From positions 1-55,387 of the forward strand of contig JAOABX010000013.1 of the NCBI GenBank assembly GCA_026418175.1: a stretch of DNA of 55,387 nt, read 5' to 3'. A program made the translations under genes and the position numbers. Origin of the DNA: Flavobacteriales bacterium. Its GTDB lineage: Bacteria > Bacteroidota > Bacteroidia > CAIKAF01. The notes beneath the pieces were generated by a model that saw only the letters and a list, made by a program, of their open reading frames with translations, ran no database searches and had not been told where the DNA came from. The number at the start of each line of letters is the position of its first letter. The stretch's first letter is position 1. Of this stretch, positions 4,878 through 51,949 are shown piece after piece.

Positions 4878-6380
4878 ATGGATATTAAATTTCTAACCTC
4901 TTCGAAAAAAGATATCATTCTCATTATTATACTATTATTAATTAATTTTTTAATAAAGGGAATGTATATTAATAAAGGGTCACTAAGTGGTGATGAACCT
5001 TTTAGTGTATATCATGCTCAAATGAATATTCCATCTATTATTTCACAACTCTCTCAAGGAAATAATCCTCCGCTTTATGAAATCGTTCTTCATGGATGGA
5101 TTAGTTTTTTCGGAATATCTGAACCCTCTGTTCGTTTCCCATCCTTACTTTTTAACTGTATAACTTTATTTTTTATTTTTAAAATTGGAAGTAAATTTTT
5201 AAATCAACGAATTGCTGTTTACGCAAGCATTCTTTTTATTTTTTCAAACTATCAAATTTATTTTTCGCATGAAGCAAGAGTATATAGCTTACTAGGAATG
5301 TTAACTTCTATTTCAATGTATGTATTCATGCATATCATTTATAATGATGAAAAAAAATTACAAGGTATTAATTTAAAAAAAACTAATAATTCAAACCTCT
5401 CGTTCATAATATTGGCTCTGGTAAATACTTTAATAATTTATGCTCATTATTTTGGATTTTTTATTATCGCTACACAATTCACATTTACATTTTTATATCT
5501 ATCATTCTTAAAAAGAAACTGGAAAAAATTATTGATAAGTACAGGTATTATGATATTCTTGTATGCTCCAAATATACCAATAGTTATAAATAGATTTTTA
5601 GCATCTTATGAAGAAACTTGGGTAAAACCACCGAAAGGAATTGAAAGTATATACAACATGTTATGGTCATTTTCTAATGCACCCCTTGTAGTTGTTGTTA
5701 TTTTAATTTTATTATTTGCTTCATTCATCAAATGGGCTTATCATTATAAAAAACAAGAAAAAAGCATTCATTTTGCATTTATCGCATATTGGTTCGGTTT
5801 TATTTTTTTTACCATGTTTGGATTATCGTATTGGGTACCGATGTTTCTTGATCGTTATCTAATGCCGGCATCTGTTTCTTATCCGTTACTAATTGCAATT
5901 TGTGCAGATTATTTTAAAATAAAAAAAATGAAATTTAACTTTATAATACCTATCGTTATATGTTCTTTATTTATTGTTACAGTAAAACCTGATTCATATA
6001 ACAAAAGAGATGTAAAAAGCCTTGTAGCTAAAATCAAATCTTTAAAAACAAAAAACACAATCATTTATATTTGTCCGGATTGGTTCGAATTGAACTTTGT
6101 TTATTATTATCAGCCTTCCTGGTTTATAGAAACAGCAAGTAATAAGAAAAATAACTTGAACGAATATTTACACGCTGACAATATATATCCAATTAATCAT
6201 TATAAACAAATTGACACAACATCAATTTCCGGAAAAGATAAAATCATATACATTGATGCTGGATCAGATTTTGTACTTCCTGATAATAATATTAAACAAT
6301 TTTTAGATTTAAATTTTAATGCAACTGAGTACCTTTCAATACAAGATATATTTAAGGTATATATCTATAATTTAAAATAA
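4878..6380 (+). CDS. GT39-like polytopic membrane glycosyltransferase
   Basis: A 500-residue GT-C fold enzyme with about ten transmembrane helices. It has the family signature near the N-terminus: GDEPFS in the first periplasmic loop (the acidic catalytic loop) followed by NPPLYEIVLHGW and SVRFPSLLF. The family transfers sugar from a polyprenyl-phosphate donor to lipid, protein or glycan in the membrane. The C-terminal ~110 residues are soluble and periplasmic. The gene is markedly richer in A and T than its neighbours and its codon use looks different, which may mark horizontal transfer. Its last nine bases overlap the end of the convergent MORN-like gene. Acceptor unknown. Confidence 0.8.
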   Translation: MDIKFLTSSKKDIILIIILLLINFLIKGMYINKGSLSGDEPFSVYHAQMNIPSIISQLSQGNNPPLYEIVLHGWISFFGISEPSVRFPSLLFNCITLFFIFKIGSKFLNQRIAVYASILFIFSNYQIYFSHEARVYSLLGMLTSISMYVFMHIIYNDEKKLQGINLKKTNNSNLSFIILALVNTLIIYAHYFGFFIIATQFTFTFLYLSFLKRNWKKLLISTGIMIFLYAPNIPIVINRFLASYEETWVKPPKGIESIYNMLWSFSNAPLVVVVILILLFASFIKWAYHYKKQEKSIHFAFIAYWFGFIFFTMFGLSYWVPMFLDRYLMPASVSYPLLIAICADYFKIKKMKFNFIIPIVICSLFIVTVKPDSYNKRDVKSLVAKIKSLKTKNTIIYICPDWFELNFVYYYQPSWFIETASNKKNNLNEYLHADNIYPINHYKQIDTTSISGKDKIIYIDAGSDFVLPDNNIKQFLDLNFNATEYLSIQDIFKVYIYNLK

Positions 6381-8711
6381 ATCTCCGCCTTCCTGGAAGC
6401 CTTTATTAAAACGAATCTGCTTGGTGAGCTTCCCTTCTTTATCATAAAATTTCCACATGCCTTCTTTTTTACCATTTTTATAATTGCCTATTACTTGTAT
6501 GCCTCCGTATTCATAATAACGAACATATTTACCGTGAAACGTATCGCCTTTTTTGCTGTATTCCCCTGATTTGTTTCCATTGGGATAAAAAAATTCCCAT
6601 TTGCCATCTTCTTTATCATTTTTATATTTTCCTTTACGAAGTACTGTACCATCTTTGTAATATTCAATCCAATTTCCATGTTTTAATCCGTTATTGTATG
6701 CTCCTTTTTCTTTTACAGTTCCGATAAGATGCCAATATGTCCAAGTGCCGTTTCGCGAACCTTTGAAGTAAGAACCTTCATATTTTCGATTGCCATTTTC
6801 ATAATACCCTTTCCAAATACTGTCCATTACCCCAAAATAAAAAAAGCCTTCGTCTTTGGGTTTTCCATTTTCATAGTACGAAATAAAATATCCATGTTCT
6901 GAACCTCCTACAAAATTGCCGGTATGTTCAATTTTGCCATTTTCATAATAATATGTCCATTTTCCGGTTTTATCATCGTGCTTAAAAGCACCTTCTTTCC
7001 ATTTTTTTCCTGATTCATAATAATACGTCCATACGCTATCACGCTTACCCAATTTATAAAAACCTTCATAGTGCTTTTGGCCATTGGGATAATATTCTTC
7101 CCAGGGTCCATGCTGTAAATTATTTTCAAATGTGCCTTTCATTTCTATCTTTCCATCAGGTAAATACCATATCCAGGTACCGGTTTTTATTCCCATATTG
7201 TAAATAAATATCCCTTCAGGCTTTCCATCCGGATAATATGTTTTCCAAATACCATGAGCCGAATCAGATTCGTAGCTAGCTTCTTCCATTAAGGAGCCAT
7301 CTTCATAATAACTTAACCATACTCCTTGTTTCTTACCATTCACCCTTTTACCTCGCATCTTAATACCGCCTTTTTCGTACCAAATCCAGGTAGAGTCGTT
7401 TTCATAATTGATAATACTTTTTTTTGCCCCGCTTTTATACCAGTATTTCCAAATTCCTTTGGGTTTTCCTTTTTCGTAGTATTCTTCGGCAGCCAGATGC
7501 CCTTCATTAAACCATGTTTTCCACACTCCATGTTTTTCGCCTTGTATGTAATTTTTTATTGCTTCCGGCTTGCCATCCATATAAAACGTTTTGTATTCGC
7601 CATTCAGTTTACCCATTGAAAAAACACACTCTTCCTGTAATTGACCGTTTTGGTACCAGGTTTTCCAGGTTCCGTCTTTGAGGGTATCTCGTTCGGTGCC
7701 TTGTATTTCTATTTGACCATTGTCAAAAAAGCGTTTTAATTCACCAGTATCATAATTTTTTTCTTCATAAATTTTTCCATTGGTATGATAATGTTTCCAA
7801 ACACCAACTTTTTTATCATTCTCATAACGGCCTTCTGTTTCAATTTTTCCATCAGCATACCAAGTTTTCCATTCACCGGTTTTAACTCCGTTTTTATATT
7901 CGCTAATGCTTTTTTTCTTCCCATTATCCCATAGTTCCTGCCACTTATCATGTGGAAGATTATTTACATATTCACTTTTTAGCTGGGGTTTTCCATTAGG
8001 AAAATAGCTAGTCCACTTGCCGTTTTTAAATTCAGGTACTCCTTCCCCTTCCAATTGTAATTTCCCATTTTCATGATAAACTTTTGTAGTTCCTCTATCG
8101 TAATCAATTTCGCTACGAAGTTGTCCGCTATCAAACCATTGCTTCCAAATTCCTCTCTTTTCATCATTTACATAAATTCCATCAGACTGTAATTTGCCAT
8201 TGCTAAACCACATTTGCCAACGACCCGATTTTTTTCCGTCAGTATAATAAAATACACTTTCTTTTTTCTTATTTCGGTAAAAGGACTCCTGTTTACCATG
8301 AAGGATACCGTTGCGATAAGTTGATTTTTGTTTCACTTCGCCGGATGAATAATAGCTTATCCAAACCCCATGACGTTTTCCGTCTTTTATAGTTCCTTTA
8401 TCACTAATGTTACCAGTTTCATTATAGAGGATAATGATCCCTTTATCATAATCAGCCTGAAGCTTTATTCGTCCGGTAATGTACCATTCAGTCCACTTTC
8501 CGGTTTTACGATTATTTTTATAATTTCCTACTGATGCAGGGGCTCCTGTGTGATAATATTCTTTCCAAATACCGTTTTTTTCACCGTTTACTAATTGTCC
8601 TTCAATTTTCAATACACCGTTTTCATAATATTCACGTACCGGCTGCTGCGCCCACATTGATTGCAAAAATAGAGCAAGAAAAAAAACACATTGAACTGCA
8701 AAAAACCTCAT
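6372..8711 (-). CDS. Exported MORN-like (YwqK-type) repeat protein, 32 repeats
   Basis: A 779-residue protein with a signal peptide (cleavage near AQQ, residues 21-23) followed almost entirely by 24-residue repeats of the form W-x-YY-x-NG-K-x-x-x-G-x-Y-x-NG-x-x-x-G. I count 32 units spanning residues 25-771, leaving an eight-residue tail. These belong to the MORN_2/YwqK repeat class, sometimes annotated as an antitoxin; nothing here supports a toxin-antitoxin role. Units 3, 8, 13 and 18 are shortened to 18 residues and each is followed by a 26-residue unit, giving an exact five-unit super-period. No T9SS sorting domain is seen. Location is probably periplasmic or outer surface; function unknown. 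Confidence 0.85.
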   Translation of the reverse strand: MRFFAVQCVFFLALFLQSMWAQQPVREYYENGVLKIEGQLVNGEKNGIWKEYYHTGAPASVGNYKNNRKTGKWTEWYITGRIKLQADYDKGIIILYNETGNISDKGTIKDGKRHGVWISYYSSGEVKQKSTYRNGILHGKQESFYRNKKKESVFYYTDGKKSGRWQMWFSNGKLQSDGIYVNDEKRGIWKQWFDSGQLRSEIDYDRGTTKVYHENGKLQLEGEGVPEFKNGKWTSYFPNGKPQLKSEYVNNLPHDKWQELWDNGKKKSISEYKNGVKTGEWKTWYADGKIETEGRYENDKKVGVWKHYHTNGKIYEEKNYDTGELKRFFDNGQIEIQGTERDTLKDGTWKTWYQNGQLQEECVFSMGKLNGEYKTFYMDGKPEAIKNYIQGEKHGVWKTWFNEGHLAAEEYYEKGKPKGIWKYWYKSGAKKSIINYENDSTWIWYEKGGIKMRGKRVNGKKQGVWLSYYEDGSLMEEASYESDSAHGIWKTYYPDGKPEGIFIYNMGIKTGTWIWYLPDGKIEMKGTFENNLQHGPWEEYYPNGQKHYEGFYKLGKRDSVWTYYYESGKKWKEGAFKHDDKTGKWTYYYENGKIEHTGNFVGGSEHGYFISYYENGKPKDEGFFYFGVMDSIWKGYYENGNRKYEGSYFKGSRNGTWTYWHLIGTVKEKGAYNNGLKHGNWIEYYKDGTVLRKGKYKNDKEDGKWEFFYPNGNKSGEYSKKGDTFHGKYVRYYEYGGIQVIGNYKNGKKEGMWKFYDKEGKLTKQIRFNKGFQEGGDLF
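6399..8639 (-). repeat. 32 tandem MORN-like repeats with a 348-bp super-period
   Basis: The coding repeats run over residues 25-771 of the MORN-like protein. Most units are 24 residues (72 bp). Short (18-residue) units start at residues 74, 190, 306 and 422, exactly 116 residues apart, each followed by a 26-residue unit. The super-repeat covers about 7101-8492. From unit 20 to unit 31 every unit is 24 residues. Confidence 0.9.
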
Positions 8712-19060: not shown

Positions 19061-21766
19061 CTACGCTTTTAAAAACTGACGAAGCACATAATTTAATATG
19101 CCTCCATTTTTGTAGTATTCAATTTCAATTTGAGAATCGAGTCGTGATTTGGTATTAAATTCAATCACTTTACCATCGTTAGCTACCGCTTTCACTTTAA
19201 TAATTTGTTGTGGTGTAAGCCCTTCTTCTATGCCTGAAATAGTAAAAGTTTCATGACCAGTTAATCCCAATGATTCAGCATTTTGTCCATCCATATATAA
19301 CAATGGCAATATTCCCATACCTACCAAATTACTACGATGAATGCGTTCAAACGACTCTGCAATCACTGCCTTTACTCCCAGCAAATTAGGGCCTTTAGCC
19401 GCCCAATCGCGGCTACTTCCATTACCATATTCTTTTCCACCTAAAATTATAGTTGGAATATTATGCTGAATGTAATATTCTGCAGCTTCAAACACAGTAG
19501 TTTCTTCCCCTGTAATATGGTTCAAAGTATACCCACCTTCTTTAGAAGCCAATTTGTTTTTTATTCGCACATTAGCAAAGGTACCCCGCATCATTACTTC
19601 ATGATTACCACGACGGGCACCGTAGCTATTAAACTCTGATTTGGGAACACCACGTTCAATTAGATACTTTCCTGCAGGACTAGTTTCTTTGAATGAACCC
19701 GCAGGCGAAATATGGTCAGTAGTTATAGAATCACCCAACACTAAAAGTGTTCTGGCATTTACAATATTCCTGGGTTGTTCTACAGTTTCAGAAATATTCT
19801 GAAAGAATGGTGCCTCTTTAACATAAGTTGAATTCGGATCCCATTCAAATAATTGACCGGTAGGTGCCTGTAATGCCTGCCATGCTGCATCACCATCAAA
19901 GGCTTTTGCATAATTGGCAGCATAATCATTTGGATCAAGTGCACTGTTCATCACAGCAGCAATTTCTTCATCGCTTGGCCAAATATCTTTCATGTACACA
20001 GGCTCGCTGTTTCCATCTAAACCGATGGGTTCATTGTATATATCAATATCTACCCTTCCGGCAATAGCATATACCACCACTAACATGGGCGAAGCAAGGA
20101 AATTCATTTTTACATTTGGATGAACACGAGCTTCGAAATTACGGTTCCCACTCAATACAGAAGCAACTGTTAAGTCTGCTTCGGTAATGGCTTTATCAAT
20201 ATGAGGAGGTAATGCGCCAGAATTGCCAATACAAGTAGTACAGCCATAACCTACGGTATGAAATTTCAATGCTTCCAAATACTCCATCAATCCTGCTTTT
20301 TGCAAATAGTTTGTTACAACGCGAGAACCTGGAGCTAACGATGTTTTCACCCATGGTTTTACATCCAATCCACGCTCAACTGCTTTTTTAGCCACCAAAC
20401 CGGCTCCCAACATTACACTGGGGTTTGATGTATTGGTACACGATGTAATGGCTGCTATTACCACTGATGCATCGCTCAATTGATATTGCTGCGCACCCTG
20501 TGTAATGGTAACCGTTTTCATTTTACCTGAATCAGAAGTATGTGTCCAACGGTCTTCAATGGCAACATATTCACGCTGATATTGTTCTGCCAATATTTTA
20601 CGGACTGTTTTATCCAAATCTCGTAACAAGATTCTATCCTGTGGACGCTTCGGGCCAGAAACAGCAGGCTCAATGGAATTTAAATCAAGCTCTAAAACTG
20701 TGCTATATTCAATTTCATTTTCATTTTCGCGCCAGAGCATATTTTCTTTACAATAAGCCTCTACAGTACCTATTATTTTTTCATCACGTGCTGTACGACG
20801 TAAAAATTCAATAGTCTGGGCATCTACCGGGAAATAAGTAATGGTACAACCAAATTCAGGGCTCATGTTACTAATGGTAGCACGGTCGGTTACTGCCAGA
20901 TTATTCAATCCATCTCCAAATACTTCAACAAATTTACCCACCACTCCATGCTTGCGAAGTAATTGAGTAACAGCCAATACTAAATCGGTTGCAGTAGCTC
21001 CATGTGGAAGTTTGCCGGTTAATTTTAACCCTACCACTTCGGGCATTATAAAGTATGAAGGTTGGCCTAACATAGCTGCCTCAGCTTCAATACCTCCTAC
21101 TCCCCATGCAACTACACCAATTCCATTTACCATTGGTGTATGACTGTCTGTTCCAAAACAAGAATCAGGGAAGGCAACTCCATCACGTACAAGAACTACC
21201 TTACTAAGATATTCCAGGTTTACCTGATGGCAAATTCCCATTCCGGGAGGAACAGCAGAAAAATTATTAAATGCTTTTTGAGCCCATTTCAACAGCATGT
21301 AGCGCTCAGCATTGTTTTTGTATTCTAACTCCACATTTTTCTTCAATGCCAGGTTGCTTCCAAAATATTCAACCTGAACAGAATGGTCTATCACAAGATC
21401 AACCGGTATAAGCGGATTTATCTTGCTTACATCTTTTCCTTTACGGGCAGCTTCAGCGCGAAGAGAAGCCAAATCTACTACACAAGGAACGCCGGTGAAG
21501 TCTTGCAATAAAACACGGGCCGGCATAAACGGAATATCTTTATCACTGGCTTCTTTTGCATTCCAGCTCAACACTGTTTTTACATTTTCTTCTGTAACCC
21601 TTAATCCATCATGATTTCGTAAGGCATTTTCCACCAATACTCGGATTGAAAATGGCAATTTGGAAATCTGAAATCCCTGCATTTGCAGTTCTTTCAAACT
21701 GTAATATTTTACTTTCCCTACGGGTGTATTCAGCTCTCTGATTACATTAAAAATGTCTTGATTCAT
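19061..21766 (-). CDS. acnA: Aconitate hydratase (AcnA/IRP type)
   Basis: A 901-residue [4Fe-4S] aconitase that isomerises citrate and isocitrate in the TCA cycle. The three cluster cysteines are visible in ITSCTNTSNPS (one) and GYGCTTCIGNSG (two). Other landmarks are DHSVQVE, CFGTDSHTPM, and the C-terminal domain block LGDSITTDHISPAG and GGKEYGNGSSRDWAAKG. Length and order of blocks fit the AcnA/IRP class rather than AcnB. It follows proC on the same strand with a 49-base gap. A -7-like box (TAGTTTTG, minus strand, 21811-21818) overlaps the proC stop and may give acnA its own promoter. Confidence 0.97.
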   Translation of the reverse strand: MNQDIFNVIRELNTPVGKVKYYSLKELQMQGFQISKLPFSIRVLVENALRNHDGLRVTEENVKTVLSWNAKEASDKDIPFMPARVLLQDFTGVPCVVDLASLRAEAARKGKDVSKINPLIPVDLVIDHSVQVEYFGSNLALKKNVELEYKNNAERYMLLKWAQKAFNNFSAVPPGMGICHQVNLEYLSKVVLVRDGVAFPDSCFGTDSHTPMVNGIGVVAWGVGGIEAEAAMLGQPSYFIMPEVVGLKLTGKLPHGATATDLVLAVTQLLRKHGVVGKFVEVFGDGLNNLAVTDRATISNMSPEFGCTITYFPVDAQTIEFLRRTARDEKIIGTVEAYCKENMLWRENENEIEYSTVLELDLNSIEPAVSGPKRPQDRILLRDLDKTVRKILAEQYQREYVAIEDRWTHTSDSGKMKTVTITQGAQQYQLSDASVVIAAITSCTNTSNPSVMLGAGLVAKKAVERGLDVKPWVKTSLAPGSRVVTNYLQKAGLMEYLEALKFHTVGYGCTTCIGNSGALPPHIDKAITEADLTVASVLSGNRNFEARVHPNVKMNFLASPMLVVVYAIAGRVDIDIYNEPIGLDGNSEPVYMKDIWPSDEEIAAVMNSALDPNDYAANYAKAFDGDAAWQALQAPTGQLFEWDPNSTYVKEAPFFQNISETVEQPRNIVNARTLLVLGDSITTDHISPAGSFKETSPAGKYLIERGVPKSEFNSYGARRGNHEVMMRGTFANVRIKNKLASKEGGYTLNHITGEETTVFEAAEYYIQHNIPTIILGGKEYGNGSSRDWAAKGPNLLGVKAVIAESFERIHRSNLVGMGILPLLYMDGQNAESLGLTGHETFTISGIEEGLTPQQIIKVKAVANDGKVIEFNTKSRLDSQIEIEYYKNGGILNYVLRQFLKA

Positions 21767-21815: not shown

Positions 21816-22622
21816 CTAACAAAATTCGCTCAGCTCCTGCGCTCTTTTTTTAGCTTTTTTCAATGCTTCTGCAATGTGCCTGTCCACCCCTTGAGCATTC
21901 AAATATGCAATGGCGGCTTCGGTAGTTCCTCCTCGCGATGCCACTACCTGAATCAGATCATCCAATGACTGTGAAGTGCTATTAAGAACAAGAAAAGAAC
22001 CAAGCATAGTTTGTTTAACAAGCAAGGAAGAAGTTGCTTCATCCATTCCCATTTCTCGTGCAGCTCTAATCATACTGTTAACAAAATAATAGAAATAAGC
22101 CGGCCCACTACCACTGATAGCTGTAACGACATCTAACAAGCTCTCCTTTTCAAAGTAAACAGCCCTACCAGTAGTAGAAAGCAATTGCTCTGCCCGATGA
22201 AGATCAGAAATTGATAATTCAGACGATGCTGTGTATCCTGTAATACCCATTCCCAACTCTGCAGGAGCATTGGGCATAGCTCGAATGATCCGGTTGATTT
22301 GTAGTTTTTTTTGAAGGCAGGATATTGTAATACCTCCCATAATTGAAATAACAACCGAAGAAGATGGTATCTTCCCAAATAAACTTGGAATAACAGAAGG
22401 GAAATCTTGAGGTTTAACCGCTAAAATGATAACATCTGGTGTTATGGTACCTAATTCATTAGGAGTTATTACATTGCCTAACTTAAGTTCGCACAAAGCT
22501 TTCTTTCGTTCTTTATTTTTTTCTACCAGCCATAATGAATTGGTATGTACTAAATTGTATTAAATAAATGCTCGGGCGTATATCACTCCCATGTTTCCAC
22601 ACCCTACAATTGCTATTTGCAT
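21816..22622 (-). pseudogene. proC: Pyrroline-5-carboxylate reductase interrupted by one in-frame stop
   Basis: Reading from the ATG at 22622 gives MQIAIVGCGNMG with the Rossmann motif GxGxxG, then a TAA at codon 21 (22560-22562), after which the same frame continues without any shift to 21816. Ignoring the stop, the product is 268 residues, the normal ProC length. Downstream blocks are intact: AVKPQDF, the GGI and RAMPNAP blocks, and ISGSGPAYFYYF with the conserved catalytic-domain residues. ProC catalyses the last step of proline synthesis. A restart at the TTG at 22496 would lack the NAD(P)H site. A -7 box (TACTTTTG, minus, 22643-22650) precedes the ATG. Real nonsense mutation, recoding and sequencing error are all possible. 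Confidence 0.85.
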
Positions 22623-22724
22623 AGAAGTTAATTCGTTTTTTACAAAAGTACAGTTATGATTTTAGTTTTATTAAATGGCATAACTCACGTTTTTAATTAT
22701 CTTCGTTACTGATACTTATATCCC

Positions 22725-23435
22725 ATGAGTTGGACTACCCGTCTTAAACAGCGAATACGCCGCGAACTTCGATGGAACTCTAAAGAATACGGAATTATCA
22801 CTCCGTTTTTTATGTTATTATTTCGTTTCCTTCAATTTCTTCCATTCCAGCTATTTTATGGTAATAAAACTGATTATTTCCACAAATTCCTTCAGGGAAA
22901 AACGCCCGGTGAAAAAAGAACGTTAGCTAGAAAAAGAGCAATTTATATTGAAATTATTCTCATTGCTTTTCTGATTATTGAACTAACCGTACCTTATGTT
23001 TACGCCAACTATCTACAAACTAGATGGTTCAAAATTGTATGTACGGTTATATTAACCCTAAGATTAATAGACATTATTCAGGTAAATGTAAACCTCTTGC
23101 TATTTGATATAATCCGCACCACAAGTACATCACTTATTACAAAATATACCCGGGCAATCATTCTTATCATCTGGAATTATTTTGAAATTATTTTAATTTT
23201 TGGTTTTTATTACCTTTCAAACAATCATTTGCTCAAGGGATATTCAGTATGGAGTGATGCTTATTATTTTAGTGGAATTACTCAAATCACCATAGGATAT
23301 GGGGATCTTTCACCAAGTGGTTATCTCCGGTTGGCCACTTTTTGTCAAGGGCTTATCGGTACAATTTTTTTGGTTTTTATCATTTCAAGAATTATATCCC
23401 TAATCCCTGAACTTAAAGAGATTGACAAGGATTAG
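22725..23435 (+). CDS. Potassium channel family protein
   Basis: A 236-residue ion channel with the K+ selectivity filter TIGYGD at residues 189-194, preceded by the pore helix (WSDAYYFSGITQI) and followed by a final helix (about 205-228). Two or three further hydrophobic helices lie upstream (about 72-95, 102-130, 143-165), so it has an abbreviated voltage-sensor-like region rather than the bare two-helix form. No RCK or cyclic-nucleotide domain is present. The N-terminal 60 residues are cytoplasmic and basic. It is divergent from proC and is followed by the ZIP transporter 44 bases later. Confidence 0.85.
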   Translation: MSWTTRLKQRIRRELRWNSKEYGIITPFFMLLFRFLQFLPFQLFYGNKTDYFHKFLQGKTPGEKRTLARKRAIYIEIILIAFLIIELTVPYVYANYLQTRWFKIVCTVILTLRLIDIIQVNVNLLLFDIIRTTSTSLITKYTRAIILIIWNYFEIILIFGFYYLSNNHLLKGYSVWSDAYYFSGITQITIGYGDLSPSGYLRLATFCQGLIGTIFLVFIISRIISLIPELKEIDKD

Positions 23436-23479: not shown

Positions 23480-24304
23480 ATGCAATCTTTTATTGATTTT
23501 TTTTCTGCAATCGGTCCTGTGTATTCTGCCTTATTTGCCACTGTGTTTACCTGGTTTCTAACAGCCTCCGGGGCATCTTTTGTATTCTTTTTCAAAAGTA
23601 TGAACCGTAAAATACTTGATATAATGCTTGGTTTTACTGGTGGAGTAATGATTGCTGCCAGCTTTTGGTCACTTCTCAATCCCGCAATCGAAATGAGCGA
23701 AACACTTTATCCTTCCATAAAATGGATGCCGGCAGCGGTTGGCTTTTTATTAGGAGCTATTTTCATTTATGCCTTGGATAAATACATGCCCCACTTGCAT
23801 ATCAATTTTGGAGAGGAGGAAAAAGAAGGTGTAAAAACAGAATGGCATCGCTCTACCTTACTTATTTTAGCAATTACTCTTCATAATATTCCCGAAGGTT
23901 TAGCAGTAGGAGTTTTGTTTGGTGCAGCTGCCTTAGGATTGGAGGGTGCTTCCGTAGAAGGAGCCGTAGCTTTGGCAATTGGTATTGGCATTCAAAATTT
24001 TCCGGAAGGCATTGCCGTAGCTATGCCCTTGCGTAGGCACGGTGTAAGTAGGTTTAAATCATTTTGGTTTGGTCAATTATCAGCTGTTGTAGAACCCGTA
24101 GCCGGTGTAGTTGGAGCATTAGCCGTTATTTATATCCAGGCAGTGCTTCCATTTGCCTTGGCTTTTGCAGCCGGAGCAATGATTTATGTTGTTGTAGAAG
24201 AAGTAATTCCTGAAACACAACGAGATAAATACACCGATGTATCAGTACTAGGGTTTATAGGTGGTTTTTTAATTATGATGATTTTAGATGTAGCGTTGGG
24301 TTAA
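23480..24304 (+). CDS. ZIP-family divalent metal transporter
   Basis: A 274-residue transporter of the ZIP family, GufA-like branch, which imports Zn2+ and related metals across the inner membrane. The two metal-binding helices are clear: HNIPEGLAVG (about residues 138-147) and QNFPEGIAVAMPLRR (about 174-188), together with an EEVIPE motif near 240. About eight transmembrane helices are predicted. A His/Glu-containing loop (MPHLHINFGEEEKEG) lies between helices 3 and 4. No Zur-type operator was recognised upstream. Confidence 0.92.
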   Translation: MQSFIDFFSAIGPVYSALFATVFTWFLTASGASFVFFFKSMNRKILDIMLGFTGGVMIAASFWSLLNPAIEMSETLYPSIKWMPAAVGFLLGAIFIYALDKYMPHLHINFGEEEKEGVKTEWHRSTLLILAITLHNIPEGLAVGVLFGAAALGLEGASVEGAVALAIGIGIQNFPEGIAVAMPLRRHGVSRFKSFWFGQLSAVVEPVAGVVGALAVIYIQAVLPFALAFAAGAMIYVVVEEVIPETQRDKYTDVSVLGFIGGFLIMMILDVALG

Positions 24305-47871: not shown

Positions 47872-50800
47872 TCAATCAATTAAAATCAATTTTGCTGTGC
47901 CAGTTTTTACTTCACCTTCAGCTGTGGTCATTTGTATCCGGCAAATATACACACCGCTTTGACGTTTGGGACCATTGGTACCTGTGCCATCCCAAGTAAT
48001 CTGTACCTGTCTGAATCCTTCCGGTATTTCATTTAATATCCAACGTTTTACAAGCCGACCATTCATATCAGATATTTGTACATCAAATACCGTATTTTTT
48101 CCTGCCTGATTATGTTCAAACGAAATTGTAACATTTTCAGTAAATGGATTAGGATATGCCTCTACACGTATTAAAGCAGCTTGCTGATTAGTAACTGTAA
48201 AATACAAGGTATCCCGTGTAAAGTTATTACATCCATCCCAAACCTGTACTACAACGAAATGCAAGCCAGAGCTAATATTTCCCAAGGGATAACGAACTAT
48301 ACCGCTTGTAAAATCATCGAGGTTGGCTTCATAATAATTATTCAATTTAATTTCATGAGTAGTATTACCATCCAAATAAGCCACTATATCATGGCCAATA
48401 CCACTACCTACCGTATTTATTCCACTTGAATCTGAAACATGAACTAACAGTACAGGATTTGCATGGGTTATTCCACCATTGCGAAATACCGTATCATTCA
48501 TAAAAATTTGTATTTCAGGGCCAATACCATCATTCAGACAATTATCTTCTGAGCCGCCCACCACGAAATTGTCATAATACCCATGTGCATCTGTCAACCC
48601 ATTTTCAGCATAATAACTGATTTTTCCTTTGCCCAACAAATAATTAATATCTAATGGAACCTTGAACGTAAATTCAAAATAACCGTTTATCACCGATGCT
48701 TTCCCTTTAAATATAACATTATTTTGAAGTTCAAAATTAAAGGATTGTGCCTGCGGATCGTTAGCCAGCGTAATGTACTGAGCCGGCTTATCAAATATGG
48801 TAGTGTACACCACACCGTTAAAATCATTCATTACATTGCCGTTCAAGTCAGCTATATGTCCTTTTATGGTAACTGTTTGAGAGGCTTTTAACGTATCTGT
48901 TGGTTGGGCTAAATCGGAAGTATCAGTCGCCAATCCGTTTATTTCATCAGTAAATACCTGAAACTTTGGGTATGCAAGTTTCATGGCTGGATCTCCGAAA
49001 AGCAAAATATTCTGTTCTCCAAAATCATTACCCGGCTGTTTTGCCAAACGAATAATATCCCCCAGTGTTGGAAGCGTTCCATCAGGCTTTCTCGAAAATG
49101 TAGCGTTGAAAAATTTTTGATTAAATCCGGGGACAATTGAGATAGGGCGAACTGTAGAAAATAATGCAATCCCTCCCCCATCTGGACGAAGCAAAATGAT
49201 TTCACCGGCGGAAGTAAATCCAGGATCATCAAAGCGGGTAAAAGTACATGTAGCAGTGGTAAATGCCGGCAATAAATTCATATTGTTCCAGCTCATCACA
49301 TCGCTAATTCGTAATAAACGCTCACTTGTTAATCCTGATTCACCACCATGCCCAATATAATTTACAAGCAGAGTTCCTTTATTCATTCGATCACTGAAAT
49401 AAGCCTCAGCATCCGGATACCGTTGGCCGGCATTGGTTACCTGTTTAAAAGCATCCAAATACACTTTGTCTATATTCCACACCGGAAAGTTAGTTTGCAT
49501 TTGAGAAGCTATGGCTTGACTGTTCGAGAAAAAAGATGATTCCCAAGCGGCTTCCATATCATCGGCTATTAACGTTACTACATTTCGCCAGTCTCTTAAA
49601 CATGCTGCATTCGATTCATAATAAATAATCTTATTTACAACATCCTTTGCTTCCTGAAGGGTACGAACTACCAATCTTCCTACGCCAATATCTATGGTTT
49701 GAGTAGGCCCGAGATTAATTTTTCCGGTAATGCCTTCGGTAGGACCTAGCAAAGCAAAAAAGTCGTCAGAAGTGTATGAGTTTCCACCCCGATCAAACGA
49801 TTCAGTAGTTTGAAAACTGGGCACATAATTAGTATTATTGGGTGTTCGGTTCAGATATGTTTTATAATCGTACGAACCATCTCCAAATAACAATAGATAC
49901 TTGGGCACATCTGAAGGGAGATGATTGTCAAAATACATTTTAACAAAATCGCGTATTGCGGTTACATCCTGTGCCCCGGAGGAGTACTCATTATAAATTT
50001 GATCCACTGTAACTGTATGCACTTTCATACCGTCGTTTAGTGTATGAAGGTCGGCCAGTTCTAATGCAGCAGGTAGAAAATCTTTATGAGTAACAATAAT
50101 TAAATCTGGAGCGGGTTGTTCTTGAGTTAGTGCATGCAGATTTTGATTAGGAACCTTTCCAATAAATGCTGGAGTTAATACTCCTGTTAAATTTGAATTA
50201 AAGGCAACAAAAGTTCGTAAAGTATCTCCGGGAACCCTGAAAGAAAAATTGGTACCGGAAGATGTTCCAAGCTGTCGAACTGGTTCTGTCTCTCTACTTA
50301 CATCCCAAACAATTACGTTTGAAACATTAGAAAGATTGTACTGCACAATGCTTCGCCCAATACTAAGTGAATCCCTAAAATGAATCACCGTGTTTGAAAC
50401 GCTGAGAGATTTTCTATAATTAAATTCTACAAAATCGAGCCATGCTTCCTGGCCACTTTGACGAACTACATCCAGTGTAAAAGAGGAAGAAGCAGGAGTC
50501 CATTCTCCAGTACCTGAACCAAACACAGCATAAGGTGCTGTATAAGAGGGGCTGGCTGCACTGATGTTAAAACTAACAAGGGTAGTTCCTGCAACACGAG
50601 CTAACATAGTTGTGCCGCAAGAAACACATCGGGCAGCAGCTTGTATTCGGATTTTTACTGGCGATGAACCGTTCCATCCACTTAAATTCACTGGATAACT
50701 ATAGGTACCCGTAAAATTAAAATAATCTCCCATCCATAAGCGGCCTGATCGAATTAAGTTTACCTTTTCATCATTAATTACATAAAATTCATCTGAATTA

Positions 50801-51708
50801 TTGGTGCTATATACAGGCATTCCAGATGCCTCAGCACGTGTTTGAATGCGCTTACCGCCGGTCCCCTGAGCAGTAAAAAAATAGTAGGTTGTATCTGTAT
50901 AAAAATGGTAAATGTATTTATACCTACGATCAGTGGGGTCAAAAATCCAGCGATGAGGAGCTTTCCCGTAAAATAAGAAATAATCACCGGGGCCAAAAGT
51001 ACCATCTCCCCCATCTTCCATCTGAATTGGATTTTCAAGAAGATCATCTGCTCGCCATAGCGCATTGGGCTCTGGCAACATACGGCCTCCATTTCCAAAT
51101 AATTTTACAGATGCTGAGGGGACTGGGCCTGTTAATGCCCCTGAAGAAACCAAATTTTCGTAGCTCACTTTGTAAACCCCATCTGTAGCAACTCCTAATT
51201 TAAACCAACTCCCCGATGATAATACCGAATTAGATGCTGATTTTATATTAGAAAGAATATTACTACTTGACTGAACTACAAAATGCATTTTTCCGCTTAC
51301 AAGCAATTCTATCTGCCCCAAACTATTTTTCCGTATAGGAATTATAGAAGCTCCAGATATTGGCTTGCGGCTAACTTCACCTGTAAAAACTGATATAACA
51401 GGTTCTGAAGATATGCTCCAACTCAAATGTACAATTTTATACCAGTTTTCTGGCATTGGTATATATTCAGCATCAAAAATCTGAACAGAAGAAGCTATTT
51501 GATTTTTAGAAGTAAATACATAGTAATATGGGAGATAATTTTCATCTAACGAAATTCCAGAACCTGTTAAAACCCAATTATTACCATCTTTAAGTAACTT
51601 CGGCTCACTCCAGCGTATACTAAATGGTACAACGTCAATGTCTTGAGCATTAAAAAAAACCGGTCTGGTAATAAAAATTATTACCAACATTAAATATCTG
51701 AATTTCAT
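47872..51708 (-). CDS. porU: T9SS sortase PorU (gingipain-like C25 peptidase)
   Basis: A 1278-residue protein. I start it at the ATG at 51708, which gives a signal peptide (MKFRYLMLVIIFI, ending FNAQ); the frame is open 16 codons further. PorU removes the C-terminal sorting domain from T9SS cargo and attaches the cargo to lipopolysaccharide. The C25 peptidase region is clear: a caspase-like His in YIGHGGESG (near 49348) and the nucleophile Cys in TTATCTFTRF (near 49245). An N-terminal adhesin-like region and a C-terminal FlgD-Ig/type A sorting-like domain (YPNPFTENVTISF ... SGVYICRIQM) complete the layout. It is divergent from porP. Confidence 0.95.
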   Translation of the reverse strand: MKFRYLMLVIIFITRPVFFNAQDIDVVPFSIRWSEPKLLKDGNNWVLTGSGISLDENYLPYYYVFTSKNQIASSVQIFDAEYIPMPENWYKIVHLSWSISSEPVISVFTGEVSRKPISGASIIPIRKNSLGQIELLVSGKMHFVVQSSSNILSNIKSASNSVLSSGSWFKLGVATDGVYKVSYENLVSSGALTGPVPSASVKLFGNGGRMLPEPNALWRADDLLENPIQMEDGGDGTFGPGDYFLFYGKAPHRWIFDPTDRRYKYIYHFYTDTTYYFFTAQGTGGKRIQTRAEASGMPVYSTNNSDEFYVINDEKVNLIRSGRLWMGDYFNFTGTYSYPVNLSGWNGSSPVKIRIQAAARCVSCGTTMLARVAGTTLVSFNISAASPSYTAPYAVFGSGTGEWTPASSSFTLDVVRQSGQEAWLDFVEFNYRKSLSVSNTVIHFRDSLSIGRSIVQYNLSNVSNVIVWDVSRETEPVRQLGTSSGTNFSFRVPGDTLRTFVAFNSNLTGVLTPAFIGKVPNQNLHALTQEQPAPDLIIVTHKDFLPAALELADLHTLNDGMKVHTVTVDQIYNEYSSGAQDVTAIRDFVKMYFDNHLPSDVPKYLLLFGDGSYDYKTYLNRTPNNTNYVPSFQTTESFDRGGNSYTSDDFFALLGPTEGITGKINLGPTQTIDIGVGRLVVRTLQEAKDVVNKIIYYESNAACLRDWRNVVTLIADDMEAAWESSFFSNSQAIASQMQTNFPVWNIDKVYLDAFKQVTNAGQRYPDAEAYFSDRMNKGTLLVNYIGHGGESGLTSERLLRISDVMSWNNMNLLPAFTTATCTFTRFDDPGFTSAGEIILLRPDGGGIALFSTVRPISIVPGFNQKFFNATFSRKPDGTLPTLGDIIRLAKQPGNDFGEQNILLFGDPAMKLAYPKFQVFTDEINGLATDTSDLAQPTDTLKASQTVTIKGHIADLNGNVMNDFNGVVYTTIFDKPAQYITLANDPQAQSFNFELQNNVIFKGKASVINGYFEFTFKVPLDINYLLGKGKISYYAENGLTDAHGYYDNFVVGGSEDNCLNDGIGPEIQIFMNDTVFRNGGITHANPVLLVHVSDSSGINTVGSGIGHDIVAYLDGNTTHEIKLNNYYEANLDDFTSGIVRYPLGNISSGLHFVVVQVWDGCNNFTRDTLYFTVTNQQAALIRVEAYPNPFTENVTISFEHNQAGKNTVFDVQISDMNGRLVKRWILNEIPEGFRQVQITWDGTGTNGPKRQSGVYICRIQMTTAEGEVKTGTAKLILID

Positions 51709-51717
51709 ACCCCGATT

Positions 51718-51725
51718 CAAACCTA
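51718..51725 (-). promoter_or_regulatory. -7 promoter box of porU
   Basis: TAGGTTTG on the minus strand matches TAnnTTTG and ends nine bases before the chosen porU ATG at 51708. This would place transcription start at or near that ATG and argues against the upstream start at 51756. Confidence 0.5.
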
Positions 51726-51949
51726 AGTCCGCAATAGTAAACTTTATTAGTAACAAAAAAGTATAACAATCGTTGAAAAAATTTTATTCACCTTTCTTTA
51801 CATTCATTATCAAAAATTTAGACCCTCAATATTATATAATTTCAACTGTAATCGTTTTAATTTTAAAGTAGCAAGATGTGAAATTTTAGTGAAAACATAC
51901 TAAAATAAAAAGAAAGGATGTTACTTAAAATAAATTTTGGCATTAAACT

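Follow-up and report, generated by a model that had tools for sequence, protein, structure and literature searches.

Gene content of the proC locus

The window, by which we mean the whole stretch of 55,387 nucleotides that was analysed, comes from a draft genome of 2.68 Mb (80 contigs, 99.7% complete), and the features around its interrupted proC frame are collected in Table 1. As a frame of reference, we used a family sample of 16 genomes, including the genome under study, with one genome per species; these are also all the sampled genomes of its order. For the divergent ORF with the ion channel domain, the 15 other family genomes offer no clear orthologue. The element that overlaps the proC stop codon resembles a Bacteroidota -7 promoter element (TAnnTTTG), presumably serving acnA. 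In particular, the string TTTGCA is common to six family genomes, and it is the sole shared element upstream of acnA in the other aligned members. At some distance from the locus, the window also encodes a 779-aa protein made up largely of MORN-variant repeats (6372 to 8711, minus strand).

Table 1. Features of the proC locus, with positions in the window
Feature	Position	Strand	Basis or remark
acnA (aconitate hydratase), next gene downstream of proC	19061..21766	-	Conserved in 16/16 family genomes
TTAGTTTTGCA, putative acnA promoter element overlapping the proC stop codon	21809..21819	-	Alignment of acnA upstream regions
proC (pyrroline-5-carboxylate reductase) pseudogene, whole frame	21816..22622	-	TIGR00112 full-length match, one internal TAA
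Longest post-stop frame with a possible start (TTG at 22496), 226 aa	21816..22496	-	Without the GxGxxG motif
Premature TAA, codon 21	22560..22562	-	Soon after the GxGxxG nucleotide-binding motif
20-codon short frame expected to be translated, MQIAIVGCGNMGVIYARAFI	22560..22622	-	Nucleotide-binding motif only
Divergent 236-aa ORF, C-terminal Ion_trans_2 (ion channel) domain	22725..23435	+	In segment absent from sister genome G001
ZupT-like transporter	23480..24304	+	Right edge, where G001 synteny resumes (23431)

A single stop codon in the proC frame

The first-pass annotation had described a minus-strand frame that starts from the ATG at 22622, carries a VGCGNMG motif, meets a TAA at codon 21 and then continues in frame to 21816, and this arrangement was found exactly as described. 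The frame ends at a TAG (21816 to 21818), leaving 247 codons open between the two stops, and no frameshift occurs between 22622 and 21816. In a profile search, TIGR00112 spanned the stop and matched over all 263 model positions with 220.3 bits (cut-off, 196.75), one TAA being reported; the post-stop part by itself reached 201.6 bits, which also exceeds the cut-off. In an alignment with 50 ProC relatives, the sequence retains 65 of the 69 columns in which conservation is at least 90%, so that the earlier statement that the remainder of the frame looks intact holds. The four departures are Q2, G96, V212 and L241, two of which fall in columns that are invariant in the other sequences; the other rows of the alignment depart from the conserved columns at 0 to 9 positions. 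Since 247 codons remain open after the stop, nearly all conserved columns are kept and the base composition by codon position is similar to that of the neighbouring genes, the frame cannot be attributed to chance.

In the nearest intact ProCs the column of the stop is occupied by Lys, in a few cases by Arg, and none of the 50 aligned relatives has a stop codon there. The inactivating change therefore sits where the orthologues have a sense codon, as in a unitary pseudogene. According to the first-pass annotation, one base change from a Lys, Gln or Glu codon would explain the stop, and relatives do have a sense codon here. A functional ProC would be encoded by an uninterrupted frame, and this one is broken at the TAA, which makes it a pseudogene of the family and not a working member. 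Furthermore, no second copy of proC, for which a search had been proposed, is present in the same genome.

Translation would end after 20 residues, and none of the starts further downstream brings the NAD(P)H-binding motif back, so that a working enzyme is not to be expected. Some functional ProC might nevertheless be produced by readthrough of the stop or by an internal restart, as the conserved downstream frame and the TTG start at 22496 could suggest. However, the GxGxxG motif for nucleotide binding is missing from the post-stop fragment, and among stop codons TAA usually leaks least. In addition, under table 11 the window's long ORFs terminate at ordinary stops, and the aligned relatives are free of stops at this column. 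We thus regard such a product as very improbable, in agreement with the first-pass annotation, which had already thought readthrough unlikely; we found no support for it.

A remnant of proC in the closest congener

None of the three congeners, one of which is about 100% complete, has proC, and one of them retains a 3' relic of it, so that loss of the gene is evidently tolerated in close relatives. This relic lies in G001, the closest congener, whose AcnA is 96% identical to that of the genome under study and which also has acnA and zupT as neighbours; the aligned DNA of the two genomes is 81 to 85% identical. From acnA the homology extends over the 12 codons at the end of proC, is lost beyond them, and resumes at position 23431 of the window, with the result that 1.58 kb of the window (21851 to 23431, comprising proC and the ion-channel-like ORF) corresponds to 527 bases in G001. 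The relic is in register with a shared TAG (29 of 36 bases match), and its translation reads KK*TSELIEFC* in G001, with an extra in-frame TGA, against KKRAQELSEFC* in the genome under study. Ahead of the stop, 26 out of 33 bases agree; among 200,000 random sequences, not one did as well. These 33 bases encode the end motif of ProC and find no match in the other family members. We also considered whether the match could merely reflect a shared acnA promoter, and rejected this, the promoter-like element covering TTAG..TTTGCA only. Since the relic codons encode the RAxELS end that is conserved in ProCs generally, the G001 stretch is proC-derived, and the common ancestor of both species thus had proC at the acnA-zupT locus.

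Where proC and the ion-channel ORF sit in the window, G001 has a G+C-rich repeat (about 90 to 150 matched bases; L110:4380-4640, contig G001:C171), further copies of which, at 95 to 98% identity, occur at L110:10495-10582 (inverted) and L169:342-488.

An error of base calling, assembly or binning, or a minority variant within a mixed population, could also place a stop in the gene of a living strain whose proC is intact, and the functional appearance of the rest of the frame, together with the draft state of the genome in its 80 contigs, would be in keeping with it. On the other hand, the change is a clean substitution, whereas errors in long-read drafts are more often indels, and the loss of proC from all congeners, with a relic at the same spot in the nearest one, means that decay is to be expected here. 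We therefore consider such an error unlikely. The best reading remains the one first proposed, namely that a nonsense mutation recently struck a proC that is otherwise intact.

Timing of the inactivation

Between 4.1 and 4.8% of the single-base changes in the proC frame would create a stop. At 5% neutral divergence, the probability of finding at most one stop and no frameshift is 0.06 to 0.07 with indels at 5% of the substitution frequency and drops below 0.01 with indels at 10%; assuming zero indels, the bound is weaker (0.02 to 0.04 at 15% divergence). With indels 5 to 10% as common as substitutions, neutral decay past about 5% divergence would be unlikely to leave a frame with a single stop and free of frameshifts; as against this, the identity to G001 is 81 to 85%, so that the inactivation is probably younger than the split from G001, and the two genomes are probably losing proC independently. 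The single stop, the lack of frameshifts and the 65 conserved residues kept out of 69 all indicate that the inactivation is recent.

ProC in the family and in the wider class

The only other family member with an intact ProC is G010, which belongs to another genus and is 77% complete. Its ProC is of a distant type (about 26% identical) and is encoded at a different locus (L119:6943-7788, contig G010:C75), and proA and proB are not above the cut-off there either, making this a second orphan proC in the family. Two further members gave merely weak, sub-threshold ProC matches. An ORF upstream of acnA in G006 was considered as a lost proC and rejected, being a response regulator by sequence. In the wider class, acnA was not found in the sampled stretches surrounding proC at about 50 related loci, and the acnA-proC pairing looks local to the genus under study.

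Among 395 genomes of the class, the best match to our ProC is 53% identical. In a maximum-likelihood tree the protein sits on a branch of 1.12 changes per column, long against the median of 0.17, and takes no firm place within a clade of Bacteroidota sequences. Purifying selection acted on ProC until recently, perhaps in a somewhat relaxed form; the long branch suggests that the constraint may have relaxed well before the stop arose. It is also possible to hypothesize that the genus did not inherit proC from the family ancestor and gained it by horizontal transfer without proAB, to lose it again now. The occurrence of this ProC type in only 1 of the 16 family genomes, and the low identity to its closest relatives in the class, would agree with such a gain; however, no close donor was found, and the protein branches deeply, as a long row, within the Bacteroidota sequences, which old vertical descent explains as well. 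We hold a transfer to be possible but rather doubtful. It concerns the origin of the gene only and is compatible with its recent inactivation.

Proline pathway genes

The first-pass annotation had also proposed looking for proA and proB. No match above the cut-off of either model (TIGR00407 for proA, TIGR01027 for proB) was obtained in the genome under study or in the 15 other family genomes, whereas 12 of 14 control genomes exceeded it for each model. Two weak proA matches in the genome under study, far below the cut-off, are other aldehyde dehydrogenases by sequence. As for other routes, ornithine cyclodeaminase (PF02423) was rejected as a bypass, since it is absent from 16/16 family genomes; ornithine aminotransferase RocD (TIGR01885) is above its high cut-off in all 16, and proline dehydrogenase (PF01619) is present in 15 of the 16.

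Because proA and proB are absent, the making of proline from glutamate by known enzymes was, judging from gene content, not possible even with proC intact. The absence of both genes throughout the sample suggests that the glutamate route was probably lost before the proC stop arose. Until recently, the most likely role of the orphan ProC was to form proline from ornithine via RocD, in a lineage that degrades proline as well. The window also encodes a 1294-aa protein (47872 to 51756, minus strand) in which a gingipain-type peptidase C25 domain is combined with a T9SS sorting tail; it would fit a life on proteins, with proline uptake replacing synthesis.

Discussion

The evidence leads us to conclude, with good confidence, that the orphan proC at this locus is a genuine pseudogene and was inactivated recently. 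The lineage would first have lost proB and proA, after which the single ProC could still have turned pyrroline-5-carboxylate, derived from ornithine through RocD, into proline. With proline presumably taken up from outside and degraded by the dehydrogenase, ProC would have become dispensable; in the genome under study the gene would then have been struck by one nonsense change, and in the nearest congener it would have disappeared save for the eroded remnant beside acnA. It follows that the null mutation suggested by the first-pass annotation remains the best reading, and that its further suggestion, that this mutation brought about proline auxotrophy, has to be revised: the glutamate route was probably already gone, proC is missing from all congeners too, and the stop closed at most the ornithine route. 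The causal story is thus reversed. The stop did not abolish the conversion of glutamate to proline, which had probably already vanished across the sampled family; it came late in an ordinary process of gene decay and did not itself bring about the loss of the glutamate route.

More broadly, a family without proB and proA may have kept orphan ProCs, of two distant types and in at least two members, together with ornithine aminotransferase, and the genus under study may now be losing its ProC in parallel; we consider the chances of this evenly balanced. If it is true, the steps by which a biosynthetic route erodes can be read from living species. The locus in any case offers a small example of stepwise pathway erosion: one species carries a fresh nonsense allele, while its nearest relative retains an eroded relic.

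Compared with ProC as defined by TIGR00112 and the dimerisation domain PF14748, the frame shows the full-length match, the N-terminal GCGNMG, the conserved SGSGPAY region and the RAxELS C terminus; it differs in being broken at codon 21 and in lying in a genome without its proA and proB partners. Work on proA mutants of Bacillus subtilis revealed a shunt from RocD to pyrroline-5-carboxylate reductase, by which proline is made from ornithine (PMC9245794). Likewise, the genome under study has RocD and no ProA, and ornithine-derived glutamate semialdehyde/pyrroline-5-carboxylate would be the main conceivable source for its ProC; however, the final enzyme is broken here, whereas B. subtilis has it intact and required regulatory mutations for the shunt (PMC9245794). 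Among gut reference genomes, 581 were scored as proline auxotrophs versus 2275 with ProA and ProB (PMC9026213, Table 1), and our literature search found no paper that links a loss of proA/proB to proline auxotrophy in Bacteroidetes. The missing proA and proB and the decaying proC resemble the stepwise amino acid auxotrophy described there (PMC9026213), with the difference that here the decay appears to have been caught while under way, a congener still carrying a relic.
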